Positions 37,884-45,426 of a stretch of DNA of 48,043 bases are shown in pieces; positions within the stretch are counted from its first letter, which is position 1; every line of letters starts with the position of its first letter. Source of the stretch: an uncultured Acidobacteriota bacterium (lineage in GTDB: Bacteria; Acidobacteriota; Thermoanaerobaculia; UBA5066); the NCBI GenBank assembly GCA_903845115.1, contig CAIMWE010000102.1, positions 1 to 48,043 on the forward strand, given 5' to 3'. Position numbers and translations under genes: made by a program. The notes below the pieces were generated by a model, which searched no databases, was not told where the DNA came from, and saw only the letters and a list, made by a program, of their open reading frames with translations.

Positions 37884-39950
37884 ATGGCGGAGCTCCTGCT
37901 CGAGATCCTGGCCGAGGAGATCCCGGCCGGTACCCTTCCCGGCGCCCGCGTCGACCTCCTCGAGAAGGTCGCTCGCGCCCTCGCCGGGGAGCGGATCGGA
38001 GGGACGTTCTTCGTCCACTCCACCTCCCGCCGCCTGATCCTCACCTCTCCCGACCTGCCGGACCGGCAGGAGGACCGGACGGTGGAGGTGACCGGCCCCC
38101 CCGCCTCCGCCGCGTTCGACGCGGAGGGGAATCCCACGAAGGCCGCGATCGGCTTCGCGAAGGCGCAGGGAATCGACGTCGGCTCGCTCGTCGTCGAGGA
38201 GACGCCGAAGGGGAAGTACGTCGTCGCCCGGAAGACGATCGAGGGGCGCTTCACCCCCGAGGTGCTCGCCGAGATCCTCCCGGCGCTGGTCGAGAAGATG
38301 ACGTTCCCCAAGATGATGCGGTGGGGCGACGGCAAGCCGCTCTGGGTCCGTCCGGTCCACTCGGTCATCGCGCTCTTCGACGGGGTCGTCATCCCCTTCA
38401 CCCTCTTCGGCGTCGAGACCTCCCGGACGACGACCGGGCACCGGACGCTCGCCCCCTCCCGGATCGTCGTGACGGGGGCGGCGGACTACTTCGCCAAGCT
38501 CCGGCACGCGTTCGTGGAGCCGGACGCCTCGATCCGTCGCGAGGCGCTGTCCGCCCAGGCCGCCGAGCTCGCGGAGGAGGCGGACGGAGTCCCCGCGTCG
38601 GACCCGTCGCTGGTCGACACCTGGTCCCACCTCGTGGAGTGGCCCGGCCTCGTCCGTGGCGCCTTCGAGGAGGCCTACCTCGAGCTGCCCGAGGAGATCC
38701 TGGTCACCTCGATGCGCGAGCACCAGAAGATGCTCCCCGTCCGGGCGGACGACGGCTCCATCCGGAATGCCTTCCTGGCCGTCTGCGACCAGGCCAGCGA
38801 CCCGAAGGGCTACATCGCCCAGGGGAACGAGTGGGTCCTCGACGCCCGCTTCGCCGACGCCCGCTTCTTCTACCAGGAGGACCGGAAGCAGAAGCTGGAA
38901 GAGCGCCTCCCCCGCCTCGGGCGCCTCCAGTTCCAGGAGAAGCTGGGGAGCTACCTGGCCAAGACAGGGCGGATCGAGAAGCTCGCGGGCCAGCTCGCCT
39001 CCCGCCTCTCCCTCGAGGCCGCGTCGCCGGACGCGGTCCGCGCCGCGGGGCTCCTGAAGGCCGACCTCGTCACCGACATGGTCCGCGAGTTCACCGACCT
39101 CCAGGGGGTCGTGGGCGGTCTCTACGCGAAGGAGGAGGGGGAGCCCGAGGCGGTCTGGCAGGCGATCTACGACCAGTACCGGCCCGCCTCGGCCGACGAC
39201 TCGGTCCCCAGGAGCGACGCCGGGGGGATTGCCGCGCTCGCCGACCGCCTCGACACCCTGACCGGCCTCTTCGGCCTCGGCCTGATCCCCACCGGCTCCA
39301 GGGACCCGTACGCCCTCCGGCGCGCGGCCCTCGGCGTCGTGAAGATCCTCCTCGACCGCGGGTGGCGCCTGGACCTGCCGGCCGCCTGCGCCGACGCCTT
39401 CGCCCTCCACGAGGGACTCCCCAGGCCCGCCGCGGAGACGCTCCGGGACCTGGACGCGTTCCTCCTCGAGAGGGTCCGGTTCCTCCTGGAGAAGCGCGGC
39501 TTCGCGGCGGACGAGGTGGAGTCGGTCCTGACGACCGACACGCGCGACGTCTGCGACGTGGCGGAGCGGGTCGCGGCGGTCGCCGCGGTCCGGAAGCGGG
39601 CGGACTTCGTCCCCCTGGCCATCGCCTTCAAGCGGGTGCAGAACATCCTCGCCCAGGCGGGCGAGCCGGACGGCGAGATCGACCCGGCCCTGGTGACCGA
39701 GGAGGCCGAGCGGGCGCTCGCCTCCGACTACTTCCAGGCCCGCGGGATGCTCGACGAGCTGATCGGCCGGCGCCACTGGGGCGAGGCGCTCGCGGTGATG
39801 GCCTCCCTCGGCCCGCCGCTGGACCGCTTCTTCACCGAGGTGATGGTGATGGCGGAGGACCCGGCCCTCCGCCGGAACCGGGTCGCCCTGCTGAGGTCGA
39901 TGCGGGACCAGTTCTACCGCGTGGCGAGGTTCAGCGAGATCCAGAGTTGA
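37884..39950 (+). CDS. glyS: glycyl-tRNA synthetase beta subunit
   Basis: 688 residues, the normal length. The beta subunit binds tRNA-Gly and completes the alpha2beta2 enzyme. Recognisable parts are LLEILAEEIPAGTLPGARVD at the N-terminus, KMTFPKMMRWGDG, VTSMREHQKMLPVR, DARFADARFFYQEDRK and the C-terminal anticodon-binding region around FKRVQNILAQAGE. The start is one base after the glyQ stop. The stop codon lies inside a perfect 14-bp inverted repeat. Confidence 0.98.
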   Translation: MAELLLEILAEEIPAGTLPGARVDLLEKVARALAGERIGGTFFVHSTSRRLILTSPDLPDRQEDRTVEVTGPPASAAFDAEGNPTKAAIGFAKAQGIDVGSLVVEETPKGKYVVARKTIEGRFTPEVLAEILPALVEKMTFPKMMRWGDGKPLWVRPVHSVIALFDGVVIPFTLFGVETSRTTTGHRTLAPSRIVVTGAADYFAKLRHAFVEPDASIRREALSAQAAELAEEADGVPASDPSLVDTWSHLVEWPGLVRGAFEEAYLELPEEILVTSMREHQKMLPVRADDGSIRNAFLAVCDQASDPKGYIAQGNEWVLDARFADARFFYQEDRKQKLEERLPRLGRLQFQEKLGSYLAKTGRIEKLAGQLASRLSLEAASPDAVRAAGLLKADLVTDMVREFTDLQGVVGGLYAKEEGEPEAVWQAIYDQYRPASADDSVPRSDAGGIAALADRLDTLTGLFGLGLIPTGSRDPYALRRAALGVVKILLDRGWRLDLPAACADAFALHEGLPRPAAETLRDLDAFLLERVRFLLEKRGFAADEVESVLTTDTRDVCDVAERVAAVAAVRKRADFVPLAIAFKRVQNILAQAGEPDGEIDPALVTEEAERALASDYFQARGMLDELIGRRHWGEALAVMASLGPPLDRFFTEVMVMAEDPALRRNRVALLRSMRDQFYRVARFSEIQS

Positions 39951-39972
39951 GGCGCGGGGCGCCTCAACTCTG
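39942..39972 (+). terminator. strong hairpin spanning the glyS stop codon
   Basis: Perfect inverted repeat with arms 39942-39955 and 39959-39972 (14 bp) and a GGG loop. It contains the glyS stop (39948-39950). No run of U follows on the plus strand, so it is not a classical intrinsic terminator; it may act as a 3' end stabiliser or a Rho-linked stop. Confidence 0.6.
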
Positions 39973-40045
39973 ACGAGGGCGATCAACATTGATCGGGAGA
40001 ACCCGAATGCGGGTTCTCCCGCGCGGAGACGCTTCGCGCCTCCGC
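39973..40045 (+). repeat. palindromic repeat unit, copy 1
   Basis: First of two direct repeats with a 73-base period. It holds a perfect 12-bp hairpin (arms 39994-40005 and 40010-40021, loop AATG) and a second hairpin (arms 40023-40032 and 40036-40045, 9 of 10 pairs, loop TTC). It resembles REP-type intergenic palindromes. Confidence 0.8.
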
Positions 40046-40105
40046 ACGAGGGCGGCCAGCATTGATCGGGAGAACCCGAATGCGGGTTCTCCCGCGCGGA
40101 GACGC
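40046..40105 (+). repeat. palindromic repeat unit, copy 2
   Basis: Second copy of the 39973 repeat, about 60 matching bases with three or so differences near the left end. The first hairpin is conserved exactly (arms 40067-40078 and 40083-40094). The second hairpin is lost because sequence after 40105 diverges. Confidence 0.8.
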
Positions 40106-40227
40106 CGCTCCCTCTCCGGGGCGGGAAGGACGCGCGGACGGTTCGTCCGGGTCGTCTCTGACTGACCGTTAACGCGGTGGGCGGGGTATCCTCGGGGCGA
40201 TCCGGGAATTTGCTGAGGAGGATGACC

Positions 40228-40809
40228 ATGAAGGGATTCGATCCGCTGCGCGTTGCCGCCCTGACGATGGCCCTGGGGATGCTCGCCGTCTCGACGCCGC
40301 TGACGGCCGGAGAGCTGGCCGGGGTGAAGCTGCCCGACACGATGACCGCCGGCGGGAAGACGCTGAAGCTCAACGGCCTCGGGTTGCGCAAGAAGGCGAT
40401 CTTCAAGGTCTACGTCGGGGGGCTCTACCTGGAGACCGCCTCCAAGGACGCCGGAGCGATCCTGGCCGCCGACGCCCCGAAGGCGGTGACGATGCAGTTC
40501 CTCCGGAGCATCGAGAAGGCGAAGCTGGTCGAGGCGTACACGGAGGGGTTCGAGAACAACGCGAAGGAGAATGCGGCGGCCCAGAAGGCGAACGTCGACA
40601 GGTTCCTCGGGCTGGTCGCCGACGTGAAGGAGGGGAGCCAGTTCACCGTCGCCTACGTCCCCGGAGCCGGGACGGCCGTCCTGGTCGACGGGAAGGAGGC
40701 CGGGAAGTTCGAGGGGAAGGCGTTCGCCGACGTGGTCTTCGCCATCTGGCTCGGCCCCAAGCCGCCTTCGGCCGACCTGCAGAAGGGGATGCTCGGTCTC
40801 GGGAACTGA
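40228..40809 (+). CDS. exported chalcone-isomerase-like domain protein
   Basis: 193 residues. The ATG at 40228 lies six bases after GAGGAGG; the ATG at 40222 is too close to that site. A signal peptide (AALTMALGMLAVSTPLTAG, about 10-28) precedes a chalcone isomerase-like domain: LNGLGLRKKAIFKVYVGGLYLE, then DAPKAVTMQFLRSIEKAKL and VDGKEAGKFEGKAFADVVFAIWLG. Bacterial members are periplasmic with no established isomerase activity; some may bind fatty acids. The promoter should be within 40106-40227, but I see no clear elements. Confidence 0.88.
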   Translation: MKGFDPLRVAALTMALGMLAVSTPLTAGELAGVKLPDTMTAGGKTLKLNGLGLRKKAIFKVYVGGLYLETASKDAGAILAADAPKAVTMQFLRSIEKAKLVEAYTEGFENNAKENAAAQKANVDRFLGLVADVKEGSQFTVAYVPGAGTAVLVDGKEAGKFEGKAFADVVFAIWLGPKPPSADLQKGMLGLGN

Positions 40810-40876
40810 GCCCGGAGGCCCGGGAAGGGAGGCCGCCGCTCCGGTTCGGGGGGAACCGGGTAGACTGCGGCCGCTT

Positions 40877-42964
40877 ATGACCGTTTCCGAACTCAAGACG
40901 TTCCTGCAAGAGAAGAGGTTCGACGTCGTCGAGAGGGCCTTCCTGGACGCGCTGGAAGACCCCCTCCCAAACTCGGACCTCCTCCTGGCCGTCCTCCAGG
41001 GCCTGACCCGTACTGGACAGAAGAGTCTCCTCCAGAAGCTCGCCTCCACCGCCGACAGCCTGCTCAAGGGAGGTCCCGAGCCTCTCGCCCGCCTCCGGTG
41101 GGAAATGCTGAAGGAATCGGTGAAGGGAGGGGGCACGCCCTCCACGCCGGACGGCTTCCACCGCCTGTTCGAGGACGCGATCGCGGCGGCCAACCCCGAC
41201 AGCCCCTCCCTCCCGACGCTGCTCGGCCGGTTCAAGTTCCGCGAGGCGAAGGTCCCGCTGGACGGGATGGCCCGGCTGGAGAAGGTGGAGAAGTGGCTCC
41301 CGTTCGAGGTGGGCCGCGTCTTCGCGCTCCCCGGGCGGGGACCCGGCAAGGTCGTGGAGATGAACTTCGCCCTCGACTCGATCCGAGTCGACTTCGAGAA
41401 GGCGAAGGGGATCGCGATCCCGATCGGCGTCGCCGCCAAGGGGATGATCGCGCTTCCCGAGGGGCACTTCCTGCGGGAGAAGCTGACGACGCCCGGCCCC
41501 CTGGCGGAGGCGGTCCAGGCCGACCCGTCGGCGGCCCTCCAGCGGGTGGTCGCGTCGTACGGCCGGAACGTCACCTTCCAGGAGCTGAAGGAGGCGATCA
41601 CCGGTCTCGTGGCCGAGGACAAGTGGAACTCCTGGTGGACGGCGGCCCGGAAGCACCCCCAGGTCGTCCTCCACGGCACCGGGAAGAACTCGACGATCGA
41701 GTGGTCCGGCTCGGCGGGCGAGGCCGACGACGTCCTGCTCGCGAAGTTCGAGAAGGCCCCGGCCGAGGACCAGCTCGACTTCTTCAGGAAGCACGCCAAG
41801 CGCTCGGCGGACCTCGCCGGACGCCTGGCGAAGGTCCTCGCGGTCGAGGCGGAGCGGCTCCGCACGAGCGACCCCGCCGAGGCGTTCGAGATCGCGGTGG
41901 CCATCGAGAAGACCCCCGGGGCAGAGATCTCGTTCCCCCCGGACGAGCTGGTCCCGAACGAGGCCGTCCCGTTCCTGGCGCGGATCTCGGACCGCGCCAC
42001 CCGAGAGCGGGCCCTGGAAGTGGTGGCCCGGCGCGACAAGGCCGCCGCGACGAAGCTTTGCGCGGACTGGTTCATGAAGGAGGAGGACGTCCGGACGCTG
42101 GACCTCCTGAGCCGGCGGCTCCTCGAGGCCGACCCGGAGCTGCACACCCAGGTCCTGGACCGGCTGCTGAAGAACCCGAAGCAGGGTCCGCGGGCCTTCT
42201 ACTGGTTCGGCCAGCAAGCGTCGGAGAACGAGTCCTTCCGGTCGAAGCTGAACCCCAGCGTGCTGGCGCGGCTCCTGGACTCGATCTCGTGGTCGGAGCT
42301 GTCGGCCGTGCGCGTGAAGATCCGCGAGATGTTCGACCGGACCGGCATCGTCGCGTCTTGGCTCCTGAAGCAGGCGACGCTCGCCGAGGCCCAGTCGTTC
42401 CTGGAGGTCCTGGGCCGGAACCACGACCTGGAGTACCACCGGCGCCTCGGCCTGGTGAAGGCCGCCGAGATGCGGTTCCCGGAGCTCCGGAAGGCCGGGC
42501 ACGACGAGGAGCCCTTCTTCGTCACCCCGGAGGCGCTCGAGGCCCGCCGGCAGGAGCTCGACCACGTCAAGAACGTGGAGATCCCGGAGAATGCCCGGGA
42601 GAAGCAGATCGCCGCGGCGGAGGGCGACCTTTCGGAGAACTTCGAGTACAAGGCGCGGATCGAGAAGCAGCAGGTCCTGGCGGCGCGGGCTGCCCGGCTC
42701 CAGTCGCAGCTGGCTCTCGCGCGCTCGCTCGACCCGGCCACGATCGACACGACCGAGGTGCGTCCCGGGACCCGGATCACGCTCGCGGCGATGACGGGCG
42801 AGAAGGTCGTCACGCTGCTGGGGCCCTGGGACTCCGAGCCCGAGAACGGCATCTACTCCTACCTCTCGGACCTGGGGAAGGCCCTGCTCGGGAAGAAGAG
42901 CGGGGAGACCGTCCAGATCCTCGGCGTCTCGGCGGTGATCTCGAAGATCGAGCCCTGGAGATGA
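40877..42964 (+). CDS. GreA/GreB-family transcription factor with a ~540-residue N-terminal extension
   Basis: 695 residues. The C-terminal 150 residues are Gre-like: TPEALEARRQELDHVKNVEIP opens the coiled coil, EGDLSENFEYKAR is the tip-proximal motif with acidic residues, and VRPGTRITLAAMTGEKVVTLLG begins the FKBP-like domain. Gre factors bind the RNA polymerase secondary channel and stimulate cleavage of backtracked RNA. The first 540 residues are mostly helical and end near LEYHRRLGLVKAAEMRFPEL. They contain no domain I can name and are far longer than GreA (about 158 residues). The start is an ATG at 40877 without a clear ribosome site. Similar long Gre fusions are known from some spirochaetes and, I believe, Acidobacteria. 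Confidence 0.85.
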   Translation: MTVSELKTFLQEKRFDVVERAFLDALEDPLPNSDLLLAVLQGLTRTGQKSLLQKLASTADSLLKGGPEPLARLRWEMLKESVKGGGTPSTPDGFHRLFEDAIAAANPDSPSLPTLLGRFKFREAKVPLDGMARLEKVEKWLPFEVGRVFALPGRGPGKVVEMNFALDSIRVDFEKAKGIAIPIGVAAKGMIALPEGHFLREKLTTPGPLAEAVQADPSAALQRVVASYGRNVTFQELKEAITGLVAEDKWNSWWTAARKHPQVVLHGTGKNSTIEWSGSAGEADDVLLAKFEKAPAEDQLDFFRKHAKRSADLAGRLAKVLAVEAERLRTSDPAEAFEIAVAIEKTPGAEISFPPDELVPNEAVPFLARISDRATRERALEVVARRDKAAATKLCADWFMKEEDVRTLDLLSRRLLEADPELHTQVLDRLLKNPKQGPRAFYWFGQQASENESFRSKLNPSVLARLLDSISWSELSAVRVKIREMFDRTGIVASWLLKQATLAEAQSFLEVLGRNHDLEYHRRLGLVKAAEMRFPELRKAGHDEEPFFVTPEALEARRQELDHVKNVEIPENAREKQIAAAEGDLSENFEYKARIEKQQVLAARAARLQSQLALARSLDPATIDTTEVRPGTRITLAAMTGEKVVTLLGPWDSEPENGIYSYLSDLGKALLGKKSGETVQILGVSAVISKIEPWR

Positions 42965-43065
42965 CCACGAGGGCCCTCCGCCCGCTCTTCCTGAACTGAC
43001 GCCCGGGCCCGGCGATTCCGCGTCGGGGCCCGATTCCGGCAGAATGACCCCGGAAGAATGAGAAC

Positions 43066-45426
43066 GTGAAGCTCCGCCGCCGCCTCGGCGCCCTCCCCGG
43101 CCCGCTCGTCGCCCTGGTCCTCGGCGGGCTCGCGCTCTTCGCGCTGGCCGGCGGAGTGGTCGTCGCCTACTACGGCCGCGTCGTCACGAAGACGATGGAA
43201 GGGCGGCGGTACAGCCTCCCGGCCCGCCTCTACTCCGACGTGTGGGTGCTCCGGACCGGCGACGCCCTCGGGCTGGAGGACGTCCTGCACCGGCTCCAGC
43301 GGCTCCACTACTCGACCGACCCCTCCCCCGACGCCATCCCCGCGAAGGGGCGCTTCCAGGTCGCGAAGGGCGGTCTACTCGTCTCGCCGAACGACCGGGA
43401 GACAGCCTACGGCCGGCAGCCGGGAGTCCCCGTCCGGGTCGAGTTCTCGGGGCGCCGCGTCGCGGGGATCCGGCGGGCCGCGGACGGCGCCGCCGCCCAG
43501 TTCGCCGTCTTCGAGCCCGAGGTGGTCGGCTCGGTCTTCGACCGGAAGATGGAGGACCGGACCCTCGTCCGCCTCCCCGAGGTTCCGAAGGTGGTGATCG
43601 ACGCGATCATCTCGACGGAGGACCGGGACTTCTTCACCCACGCGGGCCTCTCCCCGAAGAGGCTCGTCGGCGCGGTGCTCCAGGGGGCGATGCACCGCCG
43701 CCAGGTCCGGGGCACCTCCACGCTGACCCAGCAGCTCGTGAAGAACCTCTTCCTCACGCCGGAGCGGACGATGCGGCGGAAGCTGGTGGAGGCCCTGATC
43801 TCGGTGATCGTGGAGACCCGGTACTCGAAGGACGAGATCCTCGAGTCGTACCTGAACGAGATCTACCTCGGCCAGCGCGGCTCGGTGTCGGTGACCGGGA
43901 TCGAGGAGGCGTCGCGCTTCTACTTCGGCAAGCCGGTCACGGCCCTCGACCTCCCGGAGGCGGCCCTCCTCGCGGGGCTCATCTCCTCTCCCGGCCGGTA
44001 TTCCCCGTTCCGCGCCCCGGAGGCCGCGAGGGAACGGCGCGCGGTGGTGCTGAAGGGGATGCGGGAGCTGGGGAAGGTCGACGAGGCCGCGTACCGCAAG
44101 GCGCTGGGTGCCCCGCTCACGAGCGTCTCGAAGCCGCGGACCGGGATCCAGGCCCCGCACTTTGTCGACTTCGTCCTGGCGCAGGCCAAGGAGACCCGGG
44201 AGACGATCTCGCAGGACGGGCTCTCCCTCTTCACCACCCTCGACCCCGAGATGCAGGCGGCGGCCGAGGCGGCGGTACAGAAGGGGCTGGAGGAGCTGGA
44301 GAGGAAGTTCCGGCGCCTCCACCCGAAGGCCGGGGCGGAGCCGCTCCAGGCCGCGATCATCGCCCTCGACCCGGCCACGGGGTCGATCCGGGCGCTCGTG
44401 GGCGGGCGCGACTACCAGTCCAGCCAGTTCAACCGGGTGGTCCAGGCGAGGCGCCAGCCGGGCTCGCTCTTCAAGCCCTTCGTCTACCTGGCCGCGCTCT
44501 CGAGGCGCGACCTGCACCCGCCGATCACGGCGGCCACGATCCTCCAGGACTCGCCGATCTCCCTCGTCTACGACATGGGGGAGGAGAACGCCTGGACCCC
44601 GAAGAACTACGACAGCGAGTTCCGGGGACCGGTGACCGTCCGGCAAGCGCTCGAGCAGTCGCTCAACATCCCGACGGTCCGCGTCGCGATGACCGAGCCG
44701 GAGAAGGGGAAGTCGCTCCTCCCCGACATCATCGAGACGGCCCGGAAGGCGGGGATCACGTCGGTCATGAAGCCGTACCCGTCGCTGGCCCTCGGCTCGT
44801 TCGAGATCAGCCCGATGGAGATCGCCGCGGCCTACGCCCCGTTCGCCAACGGCGGCTTTCGGGTCCACCCGAGCGCGCTGCTGGGACTCGTGGGGTCGGA
44901 GGGGCGGCGGCTGGACGGGAAGGATCAGCCGGTCGTCCGGGTGGCCGATGCCAGCGCGGTGGCGATCCTCGACTCGCTCCTGCGCGGGGTCGTGGACCGC
45001 GGGACCGGAGGGTCGGCGCGCCGGCTGGGCGCCCAGGGGATCTTCGCCGGCAAGACGGGGACGACGAACGACGGCCGCGACGCCTGGTTCATCGGCTTCT
45101 CCCCGAGGCTCCTCGTGACGGTCTGGGTCGGCTTCGACGACAACAGGGGGCTGAACCTCTCCGGGTCGATGGCCGGCGTCCCGCTCTTCGCGGAGTTCGT
45201 CCGGCGGCTGCCCTCCCACTACTTCGAGGTGCCGTTCCCGGAAGGGCCAGGGGTCGTCACCGCGTCGATCGACCCGACGACCGGCTACCTCGTGACGGAG
45301 GACTGCCCCGAGTCGTTCAACGAGCTCTTCCTCGCGGGGACGCAACCGAAGGAGAGGTGCCCGATCCACCGGAGCGGCGGCGGCCCGGCCCTGATGCCGT
45401 CGGGCGGGGCGGGGGGAGCGTTCTGA
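43066..45426 (+). CDS. bifunctional peptidoglycan synthase (PBP1b-like, class A PBP)
   Basis: 786 residues. The membrane anchor is at about 15-36 (LVALVLGGLALFALAGGVVV). A UB2H-like segment follows (about 45-135; YSLPARLYSDVWVL), typical of PBP1b and its activator contact. The glycosyltransferase 51 domain (150-325) has STEDRDFFTHAG, RGTSTLTQQLVKN and EIYLGQRG. The transpeptidase (about 400-680) has SLFK in RQPGSLFKPFVY, SLN in EQSLNIP and GKTGTT, so all active-site motifs are intact. The start is GTG at 43066 with a weak GGAAG upstream. The C-terminus is short and Gly-rich. It polymerises and crosslinks lipid II in the periplasm. Confidence 0.96.
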   Translation: MKLRRRLGALPGPLVALVLGGLALFALAGGVVVAYYGRVVTKTMEGRRYSLPARLYSDVWVLRTGDALGLEDVLHRLQRLHYSTDPSPDAIPAKGRFQVAKGGLLVSPNDRETAYGRQPGVPVRVEFSGRRVAGIRRAADGAAAQFAVFEPEVVGSVFDRKMEDRTLVRLPEVPKVVIDAIISTEDRDFFTHAGLSPKRLVGAVLQGAMHRRQVRGTSTLTQQLVKNLFLTPERTMRRKLVEALISVIVETRYSKDEILESYLNEIYLGQRGSVSVTGIEEASRFYFGKPVTALDLPEAALLAGLISSPGRYSPFRAPEAARERRAVVLKGMRELGKVDEAAYRKALGAPLTSVSKPRTGIQAPHFVDFVLAQAKETRETISQDGLSLFTTLDPEMQAAAEAAVQKGLEELERKFRRLHPKAGAEPLQAAIIALDPATGSIRALVGGRDYQSSQFNRVVQARRQPGSLFKPFVYLAALSRRDLHPPITAATILQDSPISLVYDMGEENAWTPKNYDSEFRGPVTVRQALEQSLNIPTVRVAMTEPEKGKSLLPDIIETARKAGITSVMKPYPSLALGSFEISPMEIAAAYAPFANGGFRVHPSALLGLVGSEGRRLDGKDQPVVRVADASAVAILDSLLRGVVDRGTGGSARRLGAQGIFAGKTGTTNDGRDAWFIGFSPRLLVTVWVGFDDNRGLNLSGSMAGVPLFAEFVRRLPSHYFEVPFPEGPGVVTASIDPTTGYLVTEDCPESFNELFLAGTQPKERCPIHRSGGGPALMPSGGAGGAF

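Follow-up and report, generated by a model that had tools for sequence, protein, structure and literature searches.

A long-form GreA with a predicted Tudor-like barrel and winged helix is the only Gre factor found in an acidobacterial genome

Introduction

Gre factors are usually regarded as small proteins with a transient mode of action and shared access to the secondary channel of RNA polymerase. The solved chain of E. coli GreA (1grj, 158 aa) carries no N-module, and we take its acidic tip pair to be D41 and E44 in the usual numbering. Proteins of 700-900 aa with a C-terminal Gre part are also annotated in the public families: NCBIfam PRK14720 (NF011309, 906 positions) is named 'transcription elongation factor GreA', and PRK06330 (NF004969, 718 positions) is named 'transcript cleavage factor/unknown domain fusion protein'. 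We take the two families to represent the long GreAs of spirochaetes and of chlamydiae, respectively. A Chlamydiales table names a 'Transcription Elongation Factor GreA C-terminus' (PMC3899948). A search by title and abstract, with most subscription journals outside its coverage, found no literature describing the N-module of long GreAs.

Here we analyse a long greA in a window of 48,043 nucleotides, which is contig 102 of a 5.85 Mb genome (96.11% complete) from an uncultured bacterium of the Acidobacteriota class Thermoanaerobaculia. By sequence comparison, the protein is a diverged variant of a GreA architecture that is annotated but has lacked an explanation. To this we add its predicted domain content, the finding that the sampled members of the class and about half of the sampled Planctomycetota use the long form exclusively, and a testable docking hypothesis.

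Results

Coding evidence and the Gre module

The gene is a single unbroken open reading frame from ATG to stop (Table 1). Compared with the nearest relative (L015), residues 1-329 of the N-part differ by 19, 14 and 86 substitutions at the first, second and third codon positions, and these 329 codons hold 75 synonymous and 32 amino-acid-changing differences. Because third-position and synonymous changes dominate, the N-part is a genuine coding sequence under purifying selection. The neighbourhood (37884-45426) consists of glyS, a chalcone-isomerase-like protein (Chalcone_3, E 7.4e-53), the long greA and then a bifunctional penicillin-binding protein with a UB2H domain. On the minus strand opposite greA, open frames at 40643-42565 (640 aa) and 39964-42147 (727 aa) look like shadow frames of a GC-rich genome, not genes.

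Pfam recognises GreA_GreB_N at residues 548-615 (E 4.1e-17, 62.6 bits against a cut-off of 24.5) and GreA_GreB at residues 625-681 (E 9.9e-13, 48.3 bits against a cut-off of 26.9), and beyond these two domains no Pfam family matches the 695-aa protein at E <= 10. The greA model TIGR01462 matches at E 9.2e-30, a score below its cut-off. The predicted fold of residues 545-694 superposes on E. coli GreA with a Z of 16.0 (2.6 A over 148 aa, 27% identity), and the sequence alignment to 1grj spans residues 551-681. Both proteins share the tip pattern GDLxEN, which reads GDLKEN in E. coli and GDLSEN here, and D584 and E587 are invariant in a 76-row alignment, into which all 75 relatives with both modules were entered without redundancy filtering. 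Residues 545-695 make up a GreA module that is complete and keeps its tip acids. An earlier reading made from the sequence alone had placed the Gre module in the last fifth of the protein and had noted a retained acidic tip, and both points are borne out, as is its suggestion that transcript cleavage is plausible.

Table 1. Features of the long greA locus, in window coordinates
Feature	Residues	Coordinates	Strand	Evidence
Long GreA, full coding sequence with stop	695 aa	40877..42964	+	ORF list, Pfam domains, codon comparison
-10-like hexamer TAGACT, ending 10 nt before the ATG		40861..40866	+	sequence
First helical solenoid segment (predicted)	1-143	40877..41305	+	AlphaFold2 model
Tudor-like barrel (predicted), resembling Tudors of UvrD/PcrA and CarD	138-193	41288..41455	+	domain model, structural and profile comparison
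Winged-helix domain (predicted)	195-282	41459..41722	+	AlphaFold2 models, structural matches, alignment
Second helical solenoid segment (predicted)	280-542	41714..42502	+	AlphaFold2 model
Gre coiled-coil domain	545-618	42509..42730	+	Pfam, AlphaFold2 model, superposition on 1grj
Acidic tip GDLSEN with D584 and E587	583-588	42623..42640	+	sequence, 1grj alignment, 76-row alignment
Gre C-terminal globular domain	625-695	42749..42961	+	Pfam, AlphaFold2 model, superposition

Relation to the annotated long GreA families

Searched alone, residues 1-546 of the window protein match PRK06330 (E 2.7e-9, residues 148-259) and PRK14720 (E 8.7e-9, residues 137-262). Since the N-part by itself matches both families in the barrel/winged-helix region, the long GreA is already a known architecture, and the window protein shares with these families a homologous N-module and a C-terminal Gre part at the end of a long chain. 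Three planctomycete members align to PRK06330 and PRK14720 over most or much of their length. The window protein differs in that its solenoid has diverged and in that neither equivalog cut-off is reached, with 157.3 of 714 bits for PRK14720 and 126.6 of 697 bits for PRK06330.

Predicted anatomy of the N-module

The full-length AlphaFold2 model, built from 76 sequences, has a mean pLDDT of 93.3 and a pTM of 0.64, the latter meaning that the relative placement of the N-module and Gre is loosely defined. The model places two helical solenoid segments on either side of a small beta barrel and a winged helix, so that the 'very long helical N-terminus' of the sequence-only reading holds for the solenoid segments and falls short for the two small domains between them. 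The barrel strands lie within residues 148-182. The winged helix occupies about residues 217-276, with helices at 217-228, 234-241 and 247-258 and a hairpin at 263-276, and the model confidence drops to 83 and 74 around residues 531-550. Residues 124-282, modelled separately from 63 sequences, gave a pLDDT of 91.4.

Among the most conserved positions of the N-module in the 76-row alignment are the barrel glycines G146, G153, G155 and G157, together with five residues on helix three of the winged helix (W250, W254, A257, R258 and K259), which form the highly conserved motif W-x3-W-x2-A-R-K. One Phycisphaerae long GreA (L113:3401-5602) is without the barrel glycines and the H..WG pattern, its N-module and Gre being otherwise recognisable.

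No sequence relatives of the N-module were found in the PDB or Pfam at useful E-values. Structural matches of the winged helix include the forkhead protein FoxP3 (9d2j, Z 8.1) and ASXL1 (8h1t, Z 6.6), where a Z of about 8 can reflect a common arrangement. The matched ASXL1 domain (8h1t_K) is presumably the HARE-HTH; a HARE-HTH reading of the winged helix was set aside, as it was one among several tied matches. Spliceosome, karyopherin and AP-complex rows in the structural search were taken as generic solenoid similarity.

Comparison of the barrel with polymerase-docking domains

Among the best structural matches of the barrel are the UvrD/PcrA and CarD Tudors, in the company of eukaryotic Tudors, other barrels, TraI and MscS-type channels. 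The UvrD/PcrA Tudor 7egt_B superposes with a TMt of 0.80 and a Z of 6.9 (1.3 A over 47 aa, 28% identity), 7egs_B (UvrD with a polymerase lobe) with a Z of 7.5, and the CarD docking domain with a Z of 6.7 for 4l5g (1.8 A over 52 aa) and 6.6 for 4kbm. Foldseek returned no match of the domain model at E <= 0.001; MscS-type channels and a C39 peptidase domain head its list, the best E-value being 0.018 for a mechanosensitive channel, and 7egt_B stands at 0.052. Because the Foldseek E-values are weak and a Z of about 8 can be common, the barrel and winged-helix folds rest on the model and homology is not assured.

The barrel was also compared by hhalign, where all values are pairwise profile scores controlled by column shuffles and not database searches. 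The docking-domain profile comprised 31 domains of the same class, 30 of Mfd type and one CarD. Against it, the Acidobacteriota barrel profile scored 22.5, with 17.3 as the best of 200 shuffles, and a run with other settings agreed (21.5 against 10.7 for the best of 60 shuffles). The planctomycete barrel profile, from 26 long GreAs, scored 34.6 at a probability of 93%, with 17.6 as the best of 150 shuffles. As a yardstick, the UvrD Tudors themselves score 21.0 against the same 31 domains. The likeness to the RNA-polymerase-interaction domains of CarD/CdnL and Mfd thus includes a Tudor fold and a profile similarity above all shuffles tried (60, 200 and 150), whereas the long GreA barrel is embedded in a Gre protein and lies below Pfam detection in the window segment. 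For Pfam CarD_TRCF_RID (PF02559), no match was obtained in the window barrel segment, and 1 of 63 rows matched at E 0.18. The unrelated barrel family MlaD matches 11 of the 63 barrel segments, with a best E-value of 0.0017 and none for the window segment, and an MlaD identity of the barrel was set aside as weak.

The relation to the UvrD/PcrA Tudor is less clear. Against 30 UvrD Tudors, the Acidobacteriota barrel scored 18.3 (best shuffle 16.8) in an alignment out of structural register, and the planctomycete barrel scored 19.7, with 2 of 150 shuffles higher. As the first score is marginal and off register and the second lies within the shuffles, sequence does not establish a link between the barrel and UvrD. 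The structural match is close, and the pattern H-x(2-3)-W-G-x-G, kept in 25 of 26 planctomycete barrel rows, is similar to the H..[FWY]G.G found in 22 of 30 UvrD Tudors. In PcrA, mutation of a set of residues that includes H681 and W684 was reported to weaken polymerase binding (PMC5397179). The window barrel has A and R at the equivalent columns, and the seven other Acidobacteriota rows compared all have T, F, A or E for the histidine and R, K or Q for the tryptophan. With the H/W pair missing in the window, the barrel, if it docks here, must use other residues. UvrD-type docking as the main reading is weakened by the missing pair and by the profile scores. The earlier proposal that the N-part gives polymerase contacts is matched to this extent, that the N-module holds a predicted fold which contacts RNA polymerase in other proteins.

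Distribution of long and short GreA

Profile searches of the source genome (96% complete) found one GreA_GreB_N and one GreA_GreB match, both in the long greA, and no second Gre. The sequence-only reading had advised looking for a normal greA elsewhere in the genome, and the long form is the only Gre that these searches found. Long GreA matches were obtained in 30 of 30 genomes searched, its own included, with partial matches at contig ends in G007 (residues 619-695 only) and G001 (residues 1-329 only). Among 76 loci found from the N-module alone, by a scan with one conserved peptide pattern that is not a census, Gre lies in the same open frame in 75, and the remaining one is cut at a contig end. 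The 76 named relatives include three Planctomycetota; nearly all others are Acidobacteria/Acidobacteriota, often Thermoanaerobaculia or Holophagales, and a few have no stated phylum.

A wider sample covered 199 Acidobacteriota and 119 Planctomycetota genomes. A Gre match is present in 167 of the 199 Acidobacteriota (32 have none at E <= 0.001). A strong N-module match (E 4.6e-108 or better) occurs in 21, namely all 20 sampled genomes of the class, the source genome included, and one from elsewhere in the phylum (G054). Each of these 21 genomes has exactly one Gre match, in frame with the N-module; in G023 the first part of the long greA sits on another contig. Twelve further Acidobacteriota have only weak N-module matches (E 1.4e-7 to 6.9e-4); outside the class, some genomes of this phylum have two Gre matches.

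In the Planctomycetota, 99 of 119 genomes have a Gre match and 20 have none at E <= 0.001, one of these 20 carrying an N-module at a contig end. Strong N-module matches (E 7.8e-37 or better) occur in 61 genomes and weak ones in three more; the N-module and Gre share one frame in 60 of the 61, and in G359 the contig ends first. Across both phyla, the two modules are therefore in the same frame in 81 of 82 strong-match genomes (20 class members, G054 and 60 of the 61 Planctomycetota). The other 39 planctomycete genomes with Gre have short forms, 36 in frames of up to 364 aa and three in long frames without an N-module. Planctomycete long forms were counted by N-module profile search and not by frame length, a proxy that was dropped: 63 of 99 frames are at least 693 aa, but three of these carry a short GreA. 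For G250, G343 and G282 (L203-L205), the family scan found no N-module, and L203 and L204, when aligned, show an unrelated upstream open frame. None of the 119 Planctomycetota genomes has two Gre matches above the cut-off. Because no sampled genome has the long form beside a second Gre, long and short GreA are mutually exclusive in the sampled genomes. Most genomes in which no Gre match was found are incomplete assemblies.

In a maximum-likelihood tree without an outgroup, built from 154 columns of 70 Gre modules, a branch with support 95/88 separates 25 long forms of both phyla from 45 short forms. The long forms are 18 from the class and the named relatives, G054 and six planctomycete proteins (6 of 60 planctomycete long forms), and the short forms are 26 planctomycete rows, taken as the best-scoring minus four loci, and 19 hand-picked acidobacterial ones. 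This topology fits a single fusion that was then inherited or transferred, the long form replacing the short, and it speaks against repeated fusions with each phylum's own short GreA.

Start of the gene

The -10-like hexamer before the ATG of the window (Table 1) has counterparts in the relatives. Starts were picked near the aligned N-terminus with ATG preferred, and three of 76 loci were dropped because their upstream DNA was short or masked, leaving 73, the window not among them. In 28 of the 73, the end of a TAnnnT box falls 6-16 nt upstream of the chosen start, against a mean of 3.7 and a maximum of 11 in 500 shuffles, and a Shine-Dalgarno-like stretch precedes the full-length start in 20. 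In 21 of the 73, a -10-like box is placed 8-11 nt upstream of the chosen start, and a Shine-Dalgarno stretch is often absent there. Since -10-like boxes sit at this distance in many relatives, the pattern suggests nearly leaderless greA transcripts that would start at the full-length start codon, and expression of the long protein probably relies on a promoter of its own, the leader being very short in many members. In four loci (L040, L041, L042 and L047), greA apparently begins at a TTG, which shares bases with the TGA stop of the gene upstream (GGTTGA), and translation of greA may be coupled to that gene there.

The sequence-only reading would have been overturned by a separate internal promoter for the Gre part. 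A crude scan of 40780-43120, which also misses the box at the full-length start, returned no promoter-like site. At the level of translation, an in-frame ATG within residues 520-555 occurs in 31 of 76 rows and is accompanied by a Shine-Dalgarno-like stretch in four; the window is one of these four, with the ATG at 42470 (M532) just before Gre and AAGG upstream. An extra short Gre product may thus exist in this species.

Discussion

We propose that the protein is the cell's Gre-type cleavage factor in a long form, tethered to RNA polymerase by its N-module, a reading that we hold to be somewhat the more probable one and in which the docking part is inferred. By analogy with E. coli GreA, the coiled coil would enter the secondary channel, and D584 and E587 would help the polymerase active site to cut backtracked RNA. 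The N-module would act as a second hand on the polymerase, a role with less support than cleavage: the Tudor may dock on the polymerase surface, most likely on the beta subunit, as the Tudors of CarD, Mfd and UvrD/PcrA do, and the winged helix may touch DNA or a neighbouring part of the polymerase. The solenoid would then span the distance as a spacer, with a hinge at residues 531-550, and the outcome would be a factor that stays with the elongation complex rather than binding transiently.

Three other readings have to be weighed against this one. The N-module may be a scaffold that brings another partner (a ribosome, a chaperone or a repair factor) to the polymerase, so that the barrel and winged helix bind this partner, and not polymerase or DNA, while Gre still cleaves. 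A scaffold would suit the usual role of helical solenoids in binding proteins, the generic repeat proteins among which this solenoid has its structural matches, and the lack of the H/W pair in the window and the other Acidobacteriota rows compared. However, the barrel scores above shuffled controls against the Mfd/CarD docking domains, and in the 82 strong-match genomes the N-module is never apart from Gre, one case being cut at a contig end; we therefore rate the scaffold as rather unlikely. A different doubt concerns the Gre module itself, as Gfh1 and Rv3788 keep the acidic tip residues and yet inhibit the polymerase (PMC4598747). The long GreA could likewise be an inhibitor or regulator that keeps the tip and stimulates no cleavage, and the genomes without a Gre match, which are mostly incomplete, may mean that cleavage help is dispensable. 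The near identity of the tip to that of 1grj, the TIGR01462 match, though below its cut-off, and the fact that the long form is the only Gre found in the genome make this reading improbable.

The fusion itself would mean little if an internal start gave rise to the Gre part as a separate product, whether as an addition or as the main form. The M532 codon with its AAGG is the reason why we raised our estimate of this reading slightly, and even so it is the most improbable of the three: methionine stands at that column in 25 of 76 rows and few of the rows pair an internal ATG with a Shine-Dalgarno-like stretch, the crude scan returned no internal promoter-like site, and in many relatives a -10-like box precedes the full-length start. 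These comparisons do not support a separate internal start of the Gre part.

If the only Gre used is a form whose extra domains resemble polymerase-docking and DNA-binding ones, then factor exchange, fidelity and transcription-coupled repair may differ in the groups concerned, which are one Acidobacteriota class and about half of the sampled Planctomycetota. Through PRK06330 and PRK14720, Chlamydiae and Spirochaetes apparently use the long form also, on our assumption about these families, and the 'unknown domain' of a public family gains a testable reading.

A further step, which we consider possible but doubtful, is that the long GreA is an old, separately inherited cleavage factor with its own CarD/Mfd-type docking domain and winged helix, forming a three-point clamp in which cleavage-based rescue would be combined with the mode of docking seen in repair and initiation factors. 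Such a factor would be a competitor of Mfd, CarD or UvrD for the beta subunit and would so determine, in these phyla, if a stalled polymerase undergoes cleavage rescue or goes to repair. PcrA and Mfd were reported to bind at different places on the beta subunit and not to compete with each other (PMC8318588). The source genome has two separate CarD_TRCF_RID matches in frames of 1166 and 216 aa, which we read as Mfd and CarD, together with one UvrD-Tudor match and one DksA/TraR-type zinc-finger match.
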